From assembly GCF_006438785.1 (NCBI RefSeq), contig NZ_RCZB01000002.1, forward strand, positions 434,001 through 498,000: 64,000 nucleotides of DNA, written 5' to 3'. Below, one piece after another: positions 6,805-12,268 of the stretch. Within the stretch, counting starts at the first letter, position 1. Each line of letters begins with the position of its first letter. Both the position numbers and the translations under genes were made by a program. A model generated the notes under the pieces. The model saw only the letters and a list, made by a program, of their open reading frames with translations. It searched no databases and had not been told where the DNA came from. This DNA comes from Rhodanobacter glycinis. GTDB taxonomy: Bacteria > Pseudomonadota > Gammaproteobacteria > Xanthomonadales > Rhodanobacteraceae.

Positions 6805-7311
6805 ATGGCACGCGGCATCAACAAAGTCATCCTGGTCGGCAACCTTGGCGCAGATCCGGAAATGCGCCACACCGGCGGCGGCACCGCCGTCACCACGATC
6901 AACCTGGCCACCTCCGAATCGTGGACCGACAAGCAGTCGGGCGAGAAGCAGGAGCGCACCGAGTGGCACCGCGTGAAGCTGTTCGGCAGGCTGGCCGAGA
7001 TCGCCGGCGATTACCTGAAGAAGGGCCGTCAGGTCTACATCGAAGGCTCGCTGCGCACCGACAAGTACACCGACAAGGCCGGCGTCGAGCGCTACAGCAC
7101 CGACATCATCGCCAGCGAGATGCAGATGCTCGGCGGCAATGAGGGCGGCGGTGGCGGTGGCGGCGCTCCACGCGAACGCAGCCAGTCCAGCGGCGGCCAG
7201 CGTCAGGGCGGCGGTCAACCCCGCGGCGGCGACGACTACGGCAGCAGCCCGTCACGCCAGGCGCCGGCACCGGCCGACAGCGGTTTCGCTGACGACGAGA
7301 TTCCGTTCTAG
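6805..7311 (+). CDS. ssb: Single-stranded DNA-binding protein
   Basis: Binds and protects single-stranded DNA during replication, repair and recombination, and recruits partners through its C-terminal tip. The 168 residues comprise an OB fold (about 1-110; starts [18 protein letters not shown], contains [20 protein letters not shown]), a Gly/Gln/Arg-rich linker and the acidic tip DDEIPF. The 279 bases upstream hold no gene. A TATGAT hexamer at 6731-6736 may be a -10 element, but no good -35 is visible. A uvrA neighbour, common next to ssb, is absent here. Confidence 0.97.
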
Positions 7312-7345
7312 CGAACGCGCTCCCGCCTGTCGCGGCACACTGGAG

Positions 7346-7368
7346 CCCGCTTTCGAGCGGGTTCTTTC
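7346..7368 (+). terminator. Intrinsic terminator after ssb
   Basis: CCCGCT (7346-7351), a TTCG tetraloop and AGCGGG (7356-7361) form a compact stem-loop followed by TTCTTT. It lies 35 bases after the ssb stop and ahead of the convergent CcdA-like gene. Confidence 0.75.
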
Positions 7369-7395
7369 ATGTCCGGCGGAAGGTTGGCGGCGCCA

Positions 7396-8127
7396 TCACA
7401 GCGCGGTGGTCAGCCGGGTCAGCCAGTCCGGGCTGATCGACAGCAGCATCGCTTCGAGTCGGTGGTCCATGCCACTGAGGATCAGCAGCCCGAGCAGCGC
7501 GAACAGGCCGCCCATCGCGGACTTCGCGGCGCGGCCGAGCCGGTTCAGCGAGCCGCGCATGCGCAGCATGGTTGCGTGCGACGCGCCCCCCAGGATCAGC
7601 AGCGGCAGCCCCGCGCCCAGCCCGAAAAGCAGCATCAGCATGGCGATATGGGGCAGGTCCCGGCCCTGCGCCGCGAGCGTGGTGGCGGCGCCCAGCGTTG
7701 GGCCGACGCACGGGCTCCAGGCTACGCCCAGCAGCAGGCCGATCAGGAACTGGCTCGTCGGGCCTTCGCCGCGAATCGCGCCCAGTGCGTATTGGCCGGT
7801 ATTGCCTAGGCGCGCGCTGAAGCGCGCGAACACGGTCTGTAGCGATGGCAGCAGCATCACCGCGCCGAACACCAGCATCAGCGCGGCCGCCACCTGCCGC
7901 AACGTTTGCGTGTTCACGCCGACGGAAGCGCCCAGTGTCGCGATGAACGTGCCGACCAGCGCGAACGACAAGGCCAGCCCCAGCGCGAGTGCCGCCGTGC
8001 CAAACCGATGTGCGGACAGCGCCGAGGCAAGCAGGATCGGCAGGATCGGCAGCACGCAGGGCGACAGGATGGAGGCGGCACCGGCGAGAAAACCCACCGC
8101 ATAGGTGCCGATGCCGAAATCCATCAC
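7396..8127 (-). CDS. CcdA/DsbD-type transmembrane thiol-electron transporter
   Basis: Six- or seven-helix membrane protein of the cytochrome c biogenesis CcdA family, which carries reducing equivalents from cytoplasmic thioredoxin across the inner membrane to periplasmic thiol proteins. The 243 residues contain the two signature Cys-Pro sites, Cys24 in SILSPCVLPILP and Cys140 in VAWSPCVGPTLG. Its start overlaps the stop of the upstream exported thioredoxin by four bases (ATGA), so the two are translationally coupled. The likely role is to keep that thioredoxin, and perhaps the neighbouring cysteine-rich bufferin system, reduced in the periplasm. It is not next to cytochrome c maturation genes. 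Confidence 0.88.
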   Translation of the reverse strand: MMDFGIGTYAVGFLAGAASILSPCVLPILPILLASALSAHRFGTAALALGLALSFALVGTFIATLGASVGVNTQTLRQVAAALMLVFGAVMLLPSLQTVFARFSARLGNTGQYALGAIRGEGPTSQFLIGLLLGVAWSPCVGPTLGAATTLAAQGRDLPHIAMLMLLFGLGAGLPLLILGGASHATMLRMRGSLNRLGRAAKSAMGGLFALLGLLILSGMDHRLEAMLLSISPDWLTRLTTAL

Positions 8128-8507
8128 AGCGCCTGTTGCAGCGTCGCGCGGATCGCCGACTCCCGGGTCTGGCCGGTGGAGCGTCCCACCTCATGCCCCA
8201 TCCGGAAGATCACCAGGGTCGATTGCTGCGTCACCTTCAGGGCTTTTTCCAGCGCGGTTTCGGTGTCGTAGTCAGCCACGAAGATCGTCACCCCCCGCAG
8301 CGGCGGTTCGGCGCTGAGCCGGTCGATGATCGGCTGCTGCACCCGGCAGGTGGGGCACCAGTCGGCGTGGAAATAGACGGCTATCGGTTTGCCGGCGGCG
8401 TTGGCCTGGGCGAACTGCACCTGGTTGAATGGCACTTCGTCGGCCCTTGCCGTGGCGCTCGCCAGCAGCAGTGCGCCGCACAGAAACATGCCTGGAAATG
8501 CTTTCAT
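8124..8507 (-). CDS. Exported thioredoxin-fold protein
   Basis: Small periplasmic thiol oxidoreductase of 127 residues. Residues 1-22 form a signal peptide ending in ATARA. The thioredoxin active site is WCPTC (Cys51/Cys54) after the strand PIAVYFHAD. The later block TQQSTLVIFRMGHEVGR matches the usual cis-Pro region position, although the Pro itself is not obvious (QQSTLV), which is unusual. It is coupled to the CcdA-like gene by a four-base overlap and lies 72 bases downstream of DoxX on the same strand. The context suggests reductive thiol maintenance in the periplasm linked to metal homeostasis. Confidence 0.85.
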   Translation of the reverse strand: MKAFPGMFLCGALLLASATARADEVPFNQVQFAQANAAGKPIAVYFHADWCPTCRVQQPIIDRLSAEPPLRGVTIFVADYDTETALEKALKVTQQSTLVIFRMGHEVGRSTGQTRESAIRATLQQAL

Positions 8508-8579
8508 GAAGCCACCTGTTGCGGGGTTTGTTGTGGCATGCCGCGCCCGGAGTGGCGCGGTGCGTATCGGTGGCGCCGG

Positions 8580-9041
8580 TCATGCCGCCGCGCGGATGCC
8601 CAGCCAGCGCGCCAGCAGCGTGTCCAGACTGGCCTTGCCCGGGCCGGCGATCAGCAGCCAGAAGAAGATCAGGCTGTAGACGACCTCGTCCGCTTCGACG
8701 TAGTCGTCCAGGCCCATCAGGTTGCTCGACACCACCAGGGTCACCGCAACGATCATGTTGATGATCATCGGGATGCAGACCAGGCGGGTGAACAGGCCGA
8801 GCAGGATCAGCAGTCCGCCAAGCAGTTCGGTCCACGCCGACAGTGCCGCGCTGAACTCGGGAAACGGAATGCCCCAGCCGACGAAGCGCTGGGTGAAGCC
8901 GTCCAGGTTGTGCACCTTGGCAATGCCTGTTTCCAGCCAGAAGTAGCCGAATACCAGGCGCAGCACGAGCGGGCCAAGCCAGCGCACGGAGTGGAGCAGG
9001 TCGAGCAGGCGCGAAGCGCGGGCAGCGAGGAAAGAGCGCAT
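8580..9041 (-). CDS. DoxX-family membrane protein
   Basis: A 153-residue four-helix membrane protein of the DoxX/SURF4-like family. Family blocks visible are LVFGYFWLETGIAKVHN, WTELLGGLLILLGLFTR and the C-terminal helix YSLIFFWLLIAGPGKASLD. I chose the start MRSFLAARASRLL at 9041, because the longer in-frame extension is not protein-like. DoxX genes are recurrent companions of bufferin operons. Here the gene is divergent from bufA and leads a leftward DoxX, thioredoxin, CcdA set. Its biochemical role is not established; a redox or membrane-quinone link is often assumed. Confidence 0.88.
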   Translation of the reverse strand: MRSFLAARASRLLDLLHSVRWLGPLVLRLVFGYFWLETGIAKVHNLDGFTQRFVGWGIPFPEFSAALSAWTELLGGLLILLGLFTRLVCIPMIINMIVAVTLVVSSNLMGLDDYVEADEVVYSLIFFWLLIAGPGKASLDTLLARWLGIRAAA

Positions 9042-9226
9042 GGCGGGAATCCGGTGGAATGAGTGGGCAGCATGATGCGGACTGCGCCACTGCCTGCGCC
9101 ATGGTCGTGCGTCCATGCTTTCTTGCCGTGCGTCCGGTCCTGCCGGCGCCGGTGCGATGCCGGACGATCGGGCACAAAAACGGGATGCACGGGGACAGCC
9201 AGCGCCACTGGCGATGTCGAGAATGC

Positions 9227-9239
9227 GTTCCGTCGGAAC
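9227..9239. promoter_or_regulatory. Perfect dyad in the DoxX/bufA divergent promoter
   Basis: GTTCCGTCGGAAC is a perfect 6-bp inverted repeat with a one-base centre. It lies 80 bases before bufA and 186 bases before the DoxX start. Position and symmetry suggest a regulator-binding site that could coordinate both arms. The embedded GGAAC also resembles an ECF sigma -35 element, but I could not find a convincing matching -10. Confidence 0.4.
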
Positions 9240-9319
9240 ACCGCCACAGCGTGTGGCAACCGCCGACCCTTCCACCTTTGCCGCAAGATCGCGGCGCCCA
9301 CTTTCCGAGGAGTTCCTTC

Positions 9320-9598
9320 ATGAAGACCAACACGTTCAACAGCGGTGCGATGGCTATCCTGGTTGCCGGCCTGTTCGCCGCCACGTCGATGTCCGCGGTC
9401 GCCGCCGACAAGACCGCCACCGGCGACACCGCCGCCGTCAAGTGCATGCATTCCTCGTCCTGCAAGGGACACGGCGCGTGCAAGCAGGCCAGCAATTCGT
9501 GCAAGGGCCAGAACTCGTGCAAGGGCCAGGGCTTCACCATGCAGAAGAGCCAGCAGGACTGCAGCGCCGCCCAGGCTGCGGCGAAGTCGGCACCCTGA
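9320..9598 (+). CDS. bufA: Bufferin-type RiPP metallophore precursor (BufA)
   Basis: Exported 92-residue precursor peptide. Residues 1-29 form a signal peptide (AILVAGLFAATS, ending SAVAA). The mature part holds six cysteines (42, 48, 54, 61, 67, 81) in a Lys/Gly/Ser-rich context: SSSCKGHGAC, SNSCKGQNSC, KGQGF. This pattern is what I know of BufA2-type bufferins. In bufferins an MNIO enzyme with a partner protein converts cysteines into thiooxazole groups, and the exported product sequesters copper or related metals. GAGGAG lies seven bases before the ATG. bufB starts 52 bases after the stop, across a strong hairpin. Which cysteines are modified here is unknown. Confidence 0.88.
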   Translation: MKTNTFNSGAMAILVAGLFAATSMSAVAADKTATGDTAAVKCMHSSSCKGHGACKQASNSCKGQNSCKGQGFTMQKSQQDCSAAQAAAKSAP

Positions 9599-9604
9599 TC
9601 GCCA

Positions 9605-9634
9605 GGCGGGCTTGCAGCGCGCTGCAAGTCCGCC
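9605..9634 (+). other. Strong intercistronic hairpin between bufA and bufB
   Basis: GGCGGGCTTGCAG (9605-9617), loop CGCG and CTGCAAGTCCGCC (9622-9634) give a 13-bp stem with a single G-T wobble; its inner 18 bases are a perfect palindrome. No T-run follows, so it is not a classic intrinsic terminator. It ends 16 bases before the bufB start. Likely roles are partial attenuation or 3'-end protection of bufA mRNA, making much more precursor peptide than enzyme. Confidence 0.65.
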
Positions 9635-9650
9635 ATTGCCCGGACCTGCC

Positions 9651-10502
9651 ATGAATGCCTGCACTTCCGATCACCCGCTGCCGTACCTGGGCTACGGGCT
9701 GGGCCTGCGCGTGGACCACTACGAGGACTTGCTCGAGCAACCGGGCAATGTCGAGTGGCTGGAAATCGTTTCCGAAAACTACATGGTGCCCGGCGGCCGG
9801 CCGCTGGCATGGCTGGAGCGGTTTCGCCAGCGCTTTCCGCTGGTGATGCACGGCGTGTCGCTGTCGATCGGCAGCACCGATCCGCTGGATGACGGTTACC
9901 TGGCGCGGCTGTCGGCACTGGCGCATCGGGTCGAGCCGGCGTGGATTTCCGACCACCTGTGCTGGACCGGCGTGCAGGGCGTGAACCTGCATGACCTGAT
10001 GCCGCTGCCGTATACCGAGGAGGCGCTGGCCCATGTGGTGGAGCGCGTCAGCCGTGTGCAGGACGTGCTGGGGCGGCGCATCCTGCTGGAAAACGTCTCC
10101 AGCTACATCAGCTTTGCCGATGCGCAGCTGACCGAGTGGCAGTTTCTGGCCGCGGTGGCCGAGCGGGCGGATTGCCTGATCCTGCTGGACATCAACAACA
10201 TCCACGTCAGCGCGCACAACCATGGGTTTTCGCCGCTGGCCTACCTCGACGGCATCCCCGCCGCGCGGGTGCAGCAGTTTCACTTGGCCGGCCACGAGCA
10301 GGGCGGGCCGTTGCTGATCGACACGCACGACGCGCCCATCGTCGATGACGTGTGGCAGCTCTACCGGCAGGCGGTGCGGCGCTTCGGGCGGGTCTCCACG
10401 ATGATCGAACGCGACGACCATGTCCCGCCTCTGGCCGAGCTCATGGCCGAGCTGGACTACGCGCGCCAGCTGGCGCTGCCGCTGCTGCAGGACGCGGCAT
10501 GA
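9651..10502 (+). CDS. bufB: MNIO-family bufferin maturase BufB (DUF692)
   Basis: Multinuclear non-heme iron oxidase of the DUF692/MNIO family, a TIM barrel that oxidises cysteines in the bufferin precursor together with BufC. At 283 residues it is typical. Conserved metal-ligand candidates are His67 (VMHGVS), His102 (SDHLCW), Glu147 (ILLENVSSY), Asp180/Asn183/His185 (LLDINNIHVSAHNHGF), His211 and His215 (FHLAGHE), Asp224/His226 (DTHD) and Glu253 (MIERDD). All are expected of a functional family member. It lies between bufA and bufC, and its stop overlaps bufC by four bases. Confidence 0.93.
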   Translation: MNACTSDHPLPYLGYGLGLRVDHYEDLLEQPGNVEWLEIVSENYMVPGGRPLAWLERFRQRFPLVMHGVSLSIGSTDPLDDGYLARLSALAHRVEPAWISDHLCWTGVQGVNLHDLMPLPYTEEALAHVVERVSRVQDVLGRRILLENVSSYISFADAQLTEWQFLAAVAERADCLILLDINNIHVSAHNHGFSPLAYLDGIPAARVQQFHLAGHEQGGPLLIDTHDAPIVDDVWQLYRQAVRRFGRVSTMIERDDHVPPLAELMAELDYARQLALPLLQDAA

Positions 10503-11290
10503 GCGGTCTGCAGGCGCTGCAGCAGCGCATGCTGCAAGCCGTGCTGGCCGACAAGGCGCCGCGCCTGCGCGGGCTCCGCGGCGACGAGCGTGCCGATGCA
10601 TCCAGCCGTATGGACGTCTATCGTCAGGGCTACAGGATACGGCTGCGCGACGCGCTGGCGCAGGAGTTTCCCGGCCTGCGCCTGCTCGCCGGACGGGATT
10701 TCGAGCGGCTGCTGAAAAGCTACGTTGCCGCGCATCCCTCCGGCCACTACAACATCCGCTGGCACGGCGCCGGCCTGCCTGCGTTTCTCGAGTACGGACT
10801 GCCCTGGCGCGAACGCCCCGCGCTGGCCGAGATGGCACGACTGGACTGGGCCATCTCCACCGCGTTCGACGCGGTGGACGAGGTGGCGGTGGATCCCGTG
10901 CAGCTGTCCAGCGTGCCCGCCGAAGCCTGGGCCGATCTGCACCTGCGCCCGCAGGCGCACCTGCAGATCCTCAGCGGCGTCTGCAACGTCGAGGCGTTCC
11001 GCCGCGCCGCCGATCGGGAGGTCGCGCGCCCGCGGCTGCGGCGATACCGGCATTCGCGCCACCTGCTGGTGTGGCGCCAGGCGCTGGCCGTGCGCTATCG
11101 GCTGATCGAGGACGACGAGCGGATGGTGCTGGCCGCCGCGATGCGCGACGAATCATTTGCACTGTTGTGCGACCGGCTGGCGGAGCATCATGACCCGTCC
11201 GCCGCCATGCCGCGCATGGCCGGCATCCTGCGTGGCTGGCTGGACGATGGTGTGCTGGCCGGCTGGAGGCTGCAGCAGGACTCGATGTAA
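10499..11290 (+). CDS. bufC: BufC-type partner protein (DUF2063)
   Basis: A 263-residue protein with an N-terminal DUF2063 domain (about 1-95; LQALQQRMLQAVL, YRQGYRIRLRDALAQEFP). Pfam once labelled this domain putative DNA-binding, but in MNIO systems it acts as the substrate-recognition partner that presents the leader or precursor to the oxidase. The C-terminal half (HLRPQAHLQIL, RHLLVWRQ) resembles the second domain of BufC/HvfC proteins. The ATGA overlap with bufB implies stoichiometric co-translation, as expected for a complex. Confidence 0.88.
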   Translation: MSGLQALQQRMLQAVLADKAPRLRGLRGDERADASSRMDVYRQGYRIRLRDALAQEFPGLRLLAGRDFERLLKSYVAAHPSGHYNIRWHGAGLPAFLEYGLPWRERPALAEMARLDWAISTAFDAVDEVAVDPVQLSSVPAEAWADLHLRPQAHLQILSGVCNVEAFRRAADREVARPRLRRYRHSRHLLVWRQALAVRYRLIEDDERMVLAAAMRDESFALLCDRLAEHHDPSAAMPRMAGILRGWLDDGVLAGWRLQQDSM

Positions 11291-11347
11291 CCCTGGCCAT
11301 GGCCACGGCGAAAGGCTGGCACAGAACCCGCGATGGAGGGATCGCCC

Positions 11348-12268
11348 GTGCATATCGAACCGCATCCTGACCGGCCCGACGGGCCGCCGCCCCGGCTCAT
11401 CGAGCCGGCGCTGGAATCGTTGCTCAACCAGTCGATGCTGCAGGTCGAAGTGGTGGCCGAGCTGCACCGTTGCGGCTCGTGGTTCCTGAGCCAGCCGCGT
11501 TACCGGTCCGGCCTGTTCCACCTGGTGGGCGCCGGTCGCTGCACGTTCGAATGCCCCACGCTGGGCGAGCCGGTGCAACTGGAGGCGGGCGACCTGGTGG
11601 TGCTTCCGCAGGGCGATGCGCATCGCCTCAGCGTGGACGTGCCCGGACACCCGGAGCATCCGGACCGCACCAGCTTCATCTGCGGCGAACTGAAGTTTCC
11701 GGGCAACGCCCATCACCCGCTCAGTCACGCCTTGCCGGCGTGTTTCGTGACTCGAGCCAGGGATGCCGGTGCCACGTTCCGCCAGCTGTCCTCGATGATG
11801 GTGGCCCTGGTCGATGCCGGCGTGGTGGGACGCCAGGTGCTGCTGAACAAGCTGGCCGATGCCCTGTTCACGCTGGCGATCTGCGATTACGCCAGTCGTG
11901 CGGGCGAGCACCGCGGATTGTTTGCGGCGCTCGGCGATCCGCGCATTTCCCGGGTGCTGCATGCGGTGCACGAAACGCCCGGGCAGTGTTGGACCATGCA
12001 GTCGCTGGCCTGCCTGGCGTGCATGTCGCGCTCGGCGTTCGCCGAACGCTTCACCCACCTGATGAAGATGCCGCCGATGCAGTACGTCACCCAGTGGCGG
12101 GTGACGGTGGCCGAGCAGATGCTGCGCGATCGCCGCCAGTCGGTGGCCGACATCGCCCAGCAGCTGGGCTACAGCAGCGAGGCGGCATTCCGGCGTCTGT
12201 TCAAGCGCGTGAGCGGCGTGAGCCCCGGCCGCCTGCGCGTGGAAGGGACCTGCCCGACCCTCAACTGA
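11348..12268 (+). CDS. AraC-family regulator with cupin sensor domain
   Basis: AraC/XylS regulator of 306 residues. The N-terminal cupin domain (about 20-190) includes GLFHLVGAGRC and LEAGDLVVLPQGDAH. Two C-terminal helix-turn-helix units include WTMQSLACLACMSRSAFAER and DIAQQLGYSSEAAFRRLFKR. I prefer GTG 11348, which has GGAGGG seven bases upstream, over ATG 11333, which lacks one. The gene is 57 bases downstream of bufC on the same strand and could be cotranscribed, so it is a candidate controller of the bufferin cluster. Many proteins of this subtype regulate neighbouring oxidoreductases, so this link is unproven. Confidence 0.88.
   Translation: MHIEPHPDRPDGPPPRLIEPALESLLNQSMLQVEVVAELHRCGSWFLSQPRYRSGLFHLVGAGRCTFECPTLGEPVQLEAGDLVVLPQGDAHRLSVDVPGHPEHPDRTSFICGELKFPGNAHHPLSHALPACFVTRARDAGATFRQLSSMMVALVDAGVVGRQVLLNKLADALFTLAICDYASRAGEHRGLFAALGDPRISRVLHAVHETPGQCWTMQSLACLACMSRSAFAERFTHLMKMPPMQYVTQWRVTVAEQMLRDRRQSVADIAQQLGYSSEAAFRRLFKRVSGVSPGRLRVEGTCPTLN

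Follow-up and report, generated by a model that had tools for sequence, protein, structure and literature searches.

A bufferin operon and a divergent DoxX–thioredoxin–CcdA arm around predicted twin operators in Rhodanobacter glycinis

Bufferins are widespread copper-binding ribosomally synthesized and post-translationally modified peptides (RiPPs) whose active groups are thiols in an oxidizing periplasm; they are described as binding periplasmic copper through thiooxazoles derived from cysteine (PMC12452194). Buf2 loci, such as those reported from Caulobacter vibrioides, have a core of precursor, MNIO enzyme, DUF2063 partner and DoxX protein (PMC12452194, PMC13097082). All four are present in the locus analysed here, which lies in a 64,000-nucleotide stretch of Rhodanobacter glycinis DNA (the window) and is a BufA2–BufB–BufC bufferin operon with a divergent doxX–trx–ccdA arm. 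In comparison with the Buf2 loci, it adds an exported thioredoxin (Trx) with a CcdA-type electron transporter, and an AraC-family regulator with a Cupin_6 domain and twin predicted operators.

Parts of this arrangement are familiar from other systems. HvfABCX of Haemophilus influenzae likewise combines an exported Cys-rich precursor with MNIO, DUF2063 and DoxX proteins and is induced by HOCl through RpoE2, but it has an EGKCG-type precursor and sigma-factor control, and the published account, as far as available, shows no Trx–CcdA (PMC7907618). Escherichia coli RclR–RclABC offers a distant AraC relative together with two further proteins, one small and periplasmic and one in the membrane, and a copper-redox enzyme belongs to the Rcl regulon (PMC7464077); in contrast, the window regulator falls far under the RclR cut-off, RclA is absent, and the effector would be a modified RiPP. 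In a copper-related setting, as in the Scs system (ScsB/ScsC), the window locus pairs a DsbD-like membrane donor with a thioredoxin-fold protein of the periplasm. Unlike ScsB, its CcdA is a bare membrane domain of 243 aa, without the periplasmic alpha and gamma domains, and the Trx comprises 127 aa. Transcriptional regulators are reported to be frequent near bufferin-type clusters (PMC13097082). In the accessible text of the 2025 bufferin survey, sigma/anti-sigma genes are named for Buf1 only and further genes are called 'extremely rare'; a word-start search of its main text returned none of 'thioredoxin', 'DsbD' and 'TlpA'. The Pseudomonas 'Pep' clusters, as presented in the portion seen of one paper, lack Trx–CcdA. 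A preliminary description of this DNA, made from its letters alone, did not recognize the combination as a described unit, and in the open-access papers searched we found neither a description of it nor any report of Trx–CcdA or an AraC regulator in bufferin loci.

Profile scores and coordinates confirmed the six genes named in the preliminary description and the 278-base divergent region between them, which spans the doxX-to-bufA start-codon gap (9042–9319) and is common to both arms. The interval considered there (7396–12268) holds the expected genes and a seventh, the regulator, that the description had passed over. On the forward strand lie bufA2 (9320–9598; NF050166, 64.6 bits against a cut-off of 60), encoding an exported precursor with six Cys, four of them within CK motifs; bufB (9651–10502; NF050167, 389.3 against 310; PF05114, 373.9 bits), encoding the MNIO enzyme or bufferin maturase; bufC (10499–11290; PF09836, 61.8 bits against 27.2), encoding the DUF2063 partner and overlapping bufB by 4 bases; and the AraC/Cupin_6 regulator gene (11333–12268; PF12852, 95.9 bits). 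On the reverse strand, doxX (8580–9041; PF07681, 68.2 bits against 23.6) leads the reductase arm and is followed after 72 nt by trx (8124–8507; PF00085, 44.8 bits against 23.5), whose product has a WCPTC site, and by ccdA (7396–8127; PF02683, 50.4 bits against 27.1), encoding a CcdA/DsbD_TM membrane protein. BufC scores below the HvfC equivalog cut-off (22.9 against 142). DoxX falls short of the HvfX model NF050144 (73.8 against 80 bits), although it passes Pfam DoxX. In the whole genome (4.28 Mb in 17 contigs) bufB is the sole MNIO gene, and the nearest named BufB match, 96% identical, comes from a Rhodanobacter metagenome assembly. The operon product is predicted to be a thiooxazole copper binder, as known for the family.

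The control region provides the best evidence that the two arms form one unit. In an alignment of doxX–bufA intergenic sequences (38 taken, 34 distinct after duplicate loci; 243–307 bases), two blocks stand out, and they represent a single sequence type, CCGGACG-N16-GGAYG-CACG, in opposite orientations. In the window, predicted operator E1 (CCGGACG-N16-GGACG-CACG; 9106–9137, minus strand) faces doxX–trx–ccdA and predicted operator E2 (CCGGACG-N16-GGATG-CACG; 9160–9191, plus strand) faces bufABC and the regulator gene; both are conserved in the 34 distinct sequences and match the pattern exactly. The half-sites within each operator are directly repeated at a spacing of 21 bases, which is typical of AraC-family operators, and a conserved −10-like element begins 27–28 bases past each operator. 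Terminator-like sites between 7300 and 12400 number 3, against 2.5 expected. A matrix built only from E2 places E1 second across the 64-kb window, at 10.1 with 5.1 for the match after it; a matrix built only from E1 places E2 second (11.9), followed by E1 in another register (9.8) and then by a score of 0.9. E1 and E2 are the only 2 exact matches in the genome.

The operators also follow the regulator from locus to locus. At all seven regulator-positive buf loci outside the training set, the inverted pair constitutes the two best intergenic matches, scoring 28–40 bits at L215 and L219–L222 and 15–23 bits at L217 and L218, where the regulator has diverged (52–54% identical). None of the six doxX|bufABC loci without the regulator (L042, L044, L045, L054, L056, L064) has them, the best score there being 7.4 and outside the intergenic region (7/7 versus 0/6; Fisher p = 0.0006, this test, like the shuffles, ignoring kinship). 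Nor were operators found at the four loci that have a regulator homologue and no buf genes (L211–L214). Since the operators track the local regulator, the two probably form the ancestral core, and trx–ccdA would have come under them by position behind doxX. The suggestion in the preliminary description that the two arms belong together is supported: the same operator type faces each arm and tracks the local regulator, and the combination recurs outside the family.

Among the NCBIfam models the regulator is closest to RclR (NF040475), yet it scores far under the cut-off (124.5 against 400), whereas E. coli RclR itself scores 557. At E 1e-60 or better it was found in 52/233 genomes of the family, in 51 of these less than 3 kb from BufB; the sole exception, G091, has no BufB match. 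Homologues without bufferin genes or nearby operators are the G091 protein (L211) and second copies in G046, G086 and G087 (L212–L214). All 42 genomes with the CcdA fall within these 52, relatives not being independent. RclR is described as activated when HOCl oxidizes Cys21 and Cys89, with a Cu(II) reductase in its regulon (PMC7464077). In our alignment the regulator Cys117, equivalent to RclR Cys89, and Cys184 are kept in 39/39 rows, Cys47, Cys70 and Cys137 in 38/39, and Cys230 in 35, with 4 gaps. The column of RclR Cys21 contains no Cys; one occurs three columns on in 38/39 rows. A profile search against solved structures matched the regulator only to AraC-type DNA-binding domains, and therefore no structure informs its cupin.

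Within the family, BufB (NF050167) was matched in 169/233 genomes, in 137 above the cut-off, and the window CcdA in 42/233 at E 1e-20 or better. Twenty-five of the 42 CcdA matches are 63–100% identical to the window protein, and 23 of these lie less than 5 kb from BufB in the full seven-gene layout; at the two exceptions, G084 and G101, the Trx–CcdA pair is sited elsewhere in the genome. The other 17 matches (43–48% identity) are not near BufB, and trx and ccdA are divergent at the 11/17 loci examined. The layout is more than chance, because all seven genes recur in the same order in 23/233 genomes, the window's own included, with trx interrupted by N in one (G165/L146). Across the 22 loci free of N, doxX and trx are 6–143 nt apart, and in all 22 trx shares one base with ccdA when the ATG is taken as the start; L146 was left out of this count and of the Trx alignment because of its N run, and an apparent Trx–CcdA fusion there proved to be an artefact of reading through it.

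A BufB tree built from 42 loci implies at least 5 changes in whether the pair is present, at least 3 of them on well-supported (starred) branches. Since deep BufB lineages (L217, L218, Frateuria L041, and L036 with its relatives) are without the pair and the label changes 5 times, the likeliest history within the family is a single gain of Trx–CcdA followed by several losses.

Outside the family, the pair appears to have joined bufferin loci several times independently. A class survey of 369 genomes gave 23 other CcdA hits, of which 20 were examined and one is bufferin-linked (L153). Here Trx–CcdA, two Cys-repeat peptides, DUF6969, a DUF2282 (Buf1-type) precursor, MNIO, DUF2063 and a DoxX-like protein are encoded on one strand. 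The two peptides (L153, about 6,900–7,510) are small, exported or lipoprotein-like, with NPCA-type Cys repeats; a scan of one of them gave no match in Pfam or NCBIfam, and they might represent a novel type of MNIO precursor. The Methylotenera family (100 genomes) yielded 14 hits and, besides the Methylotenera locus L102, 2 of 12 tested are linked (L172, L176), and a phylum survey (398 genomes) yielded 44 other hits, 27 with an MNIO, of which 2 are linked (L192, L193), G704 being undecidable and G621 outside the MNIO test. L192 has BufA2–BufB–BufC–unknown–Trx–CcdA on one strand. At L193, Trx–CcdA lies upstream of a DUF2282 precursor, MNIO and DUF2063 with an other-strand gene between, and at L176 a convergent CcdA–Trx lies beyond bufC plus one gene; both were counted as linked and could be chance placements. 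Not counted was L205, where an ordinary CcdA (70 bits) with DoxX lies upstream of bufAABC at 2.5 kb.

Linkages outside the family thus number 5 against about 0.29 expected (P about 1e-5 under rough assumptions; P = 2e-4 with G692 set aside as kin of G600). In accordance with repeated joining, the label 'beside an MNIO' needs 8 changes on a CcdA tree of 73 rows, at least 5 of them on well-supported branches; L194, which meets a contig end, was left out of the label count. In G828 the bufferin-linked copy is distinct from a second, unlinked one. Trx and CcdA are adjacent to each other in all bufferin-linked loci.

In Legionella, a CcdA-type protein is encoded downstream in four of six named loci. 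These loci share CcdA and thioredoxin functions beside bufABC with the window locus but differ in carrying a single fusion protein of another family after cytochrome b561: at L096:9614-11981, bufABC is followed by cytochrome b561 and a 551-aa DsbD_TM–Redoxin–Thioredoxin_10 fusion. The fusion occurs likewise at L099 and L073, in the latter 2.5 kb away, and is split in L092. We also observed genes for exported CSSC-type proteins adjoining Methylotenera loci (L172:7939-8727, DUF1223; L102:9671-10459, alike by eye). On Sphingomonadaceae plasmids (L224, L225), one locus brings together DoxX and a DUF2282 gene, a sigma factor accompanied by a DUF1109 protein of anti-sigma type, and a second small precursor–MNIO–DUF2063 set. 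On a Pseudomonas mandelii plasmid (L227), an MNIO–DUF2063 pair is flanked by a heavy-metal P-type ATPase on one side and by an RND efflux operon on the other.

CcdA carries the Cys motifs LSPCVLP and WSPCVGP, with C24 and C140 unchanged across the 9 relatives aligned, and its profile matches the solved CcdA 5vkv at 8e-24. It is an extra copy, because two other DsbD_TM proteins, both longer, are encoded in this genome by open frames of 742 and 586 aa. Trx has an N terminus that looks like a signal peptide by eye and scores under the TIGR01068 thioredoxin equivalog cut-off (52.6 against 96.8), while passing Pfam Thioredoxin. The active site is WCPTC in 47/72 rows. Where alignment to E. coli TrxA predicts the cis-proline, the window Trx has Ser, and this column over 72 Trx rows holds 69 Ser, 2 Ala and 1 gap. 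The entire sampled Trx family paired with this CcdA lacks the cis-proline, bufferin-linked or not. Human TRX1 P75S/T/A takes up an Fe-S cluster, the cis-proline being thought to block metal binding (PMC6210436, PMC2757866), and its loss here may permit metal binding.

The reading that we prefer is a co-regulated envelope response with two outputs, in which Trx–CcdA keeps the bufferin thiols reduced; we give it slightly less than even odds (about 0.45), and the function of the whole unit we infer from the sequences. BufB and BufC would act on BufA2 at its CK cysteines, and the modified peptide, once exported, would bind copper, as is known for the family. CcdA would draw electrons from the cytoplasm and hand them to the exported Trx, which would keep the thiooxazole thiols, and perhaps the two flanking Cys, reduced and so able to bind Cu(I) despite the oxidizing periplasm. 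The regulator is predicted to bind both inverted operators and to turn on both arms, as their co-occurrence suggests, and may sense thiol oxidation or copper through its conserved Cys. DoxX, which is in the arm even where Trx–CcdA is missing, might more speculatively be the bufferin's probable membrane redox partner.

Published chemistry agrees with a need for reducing power. Thiooxazole thiols are alkylated by iodoacetamide, and disulfides are suspected behind aggregation (PMC13097082); bulbicupramide was characterized as an oxidized disulfide, and its TCEP-reduced form bound Cu(I) (PMC12538549). A CcdA-fed periplasmic Trx would be the obvious way of keeping such thiols reduced, and no open-access paper that we found joins thiooxazole, thioredoxin and periplasm. 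The proposal in the preliminary description that periplasmic thiols need reducing power fits this chemistry, and the modified thiols, which are free, can be oxidized to disulfides and, once reduced, bind Cu(I), are at least as likely a client as the unmodified Cys named there. Copper cycling between redox states by the pair, which it also offered as an example, is a hypothetical role.

Several observations weigh against this reading. Among named genomes, the 80 best-matching BufB loci, many of them broken by contig ends, include 7 with Trx and CcdA within 5 kb (six Rhodanobacteraceae and the Methylotenera locus L102). In the family, the pair lies beside BufB in 23 of the 169 BufB-positive genomes, and neither protein is listed in the gene tables, which are incomplete, of six plasmid bufferin loci. 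The preliminary description had proposed a survey of bufferin loci for an adjacent pair and had treated rarity as evidence against a link; the pair recurs independently, but that objection holds in part, because Trx–CcdA is rare beside bufferin loci in general. Since most bufferin loci are without it, the pair is not needed for bufferin function in general. The BufA2 core (six Cys, four CK) is identical in loci with and without the pair, so that a special precursor going with it is ruled out. Loci without Trx–CcdA carry operators and regulator just as well, and trx–ccdA is therefore tied to the unit only through doxX. A strong operator was not found at the unlinked Trx–CcdA pairs (L112–L124), which rules them out as members of the same regulon. 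Between 7300 and 12400, 0 sigma-70-like promoters were found against 0.4 expected, and at up to 3 mismatches the operator pattern has 3 genome matches, equal to a reversed control pattern, so that only the exact matches count. Linkage at class level alone is not significant (P 0.14, assuming two MNIO genes and 3 Mb per genome). Finally, a disulfide joins the first Cys to the last in one bufferin described in the literature, and a reductase might interfere with this bond.

General envelope repair is a close rival to a dedicated bufferin-thiol reductase, and one that we regard as quite plausible if short of probable. Copper or oxidants would trigger both arms; the bufferin would chelate, and Trx–CcdA would mend envelope cysteines generally, without the bufferin as client. 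It finds precedent in Scs, whose DsbD-like and thioredoxin-like pair is reported to serve copper tolerance (PMC8900818), and in the described co-regulation of bufferin-type operons with the repair of periplasmic oxidation damage, including that of methionine: H. influenzae RpoE2 controls the doxX–hvf cluster together with msrAB under HOCl (PMC7907618), and in Caulobacter SigF is reported to govern a sulfoxide reductase along with DoxX and the two bufferin operons (PMC3511200, PMC8224329). Trx–CcdA pairs also exist without a nearby bufferin. General repair accounts less well for the repeated recruitment of the pair to bufferin loci, and for its presence in a genome that already has two longer DsbD_TM proteins.

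A bolder version of the thiol-reductase reading, which we consider unlikely, is a copper buffer recharged by redox. Oxidants or Cu(II) would turn the bufferin thiols to disulfides and a dedicated CcdA–Trx, co-induced by the Cys-sensing RclR-like activator through mirror-image operators, would reduce them again, so that one peptide could be used many times; Trx without its cis-proline may also carry copper. If true, it would be the first case of a metallophore recycled by a dedicated reductase, and one that several lineages assembled independently.

That Trx–CcdA is a passenger, inserted behind doxX by happenstance with no bufferin link, seems improbable. The pair is indeed optional in the family, with 5 label changes on the BufB tree, at least 3 on starred branches, missing from deep lineages that have operators and regulator, and rare in general; but it has been kept in 23 genomes of three genera, tightly packed with doxX, and was linked independently in other lineages. 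Least probable of all is a Trx that binds copper via CPTC and swaps it with the bufferin, CcdA resetting it, as the replacement of the cis-proline by Ser or Ala in 71/72 rows (one gap) and the human TRX1 P75S/T/A precedent might suggest (PMC6210436, PMC2757866), since that precedent concerns an Fe-S cluster, not copper, and the missing cis-proline is shared by unlinked pairs and is therefore not a bufferin adaptation.

How bufferin thiols stay reduced is a question not raised in the papers that we found. The control region shared with genes for reducing power suggests that the sulphur groups of the bufferin must stay reduced to work, and a reductase pair wired to the peptide's own operators makes this directly testable. 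The regulator and twin operators also offer a first candidate for the circuit that controls a Buf2 locus, and they might connect the sensing of copper with that of reactive chlorine.

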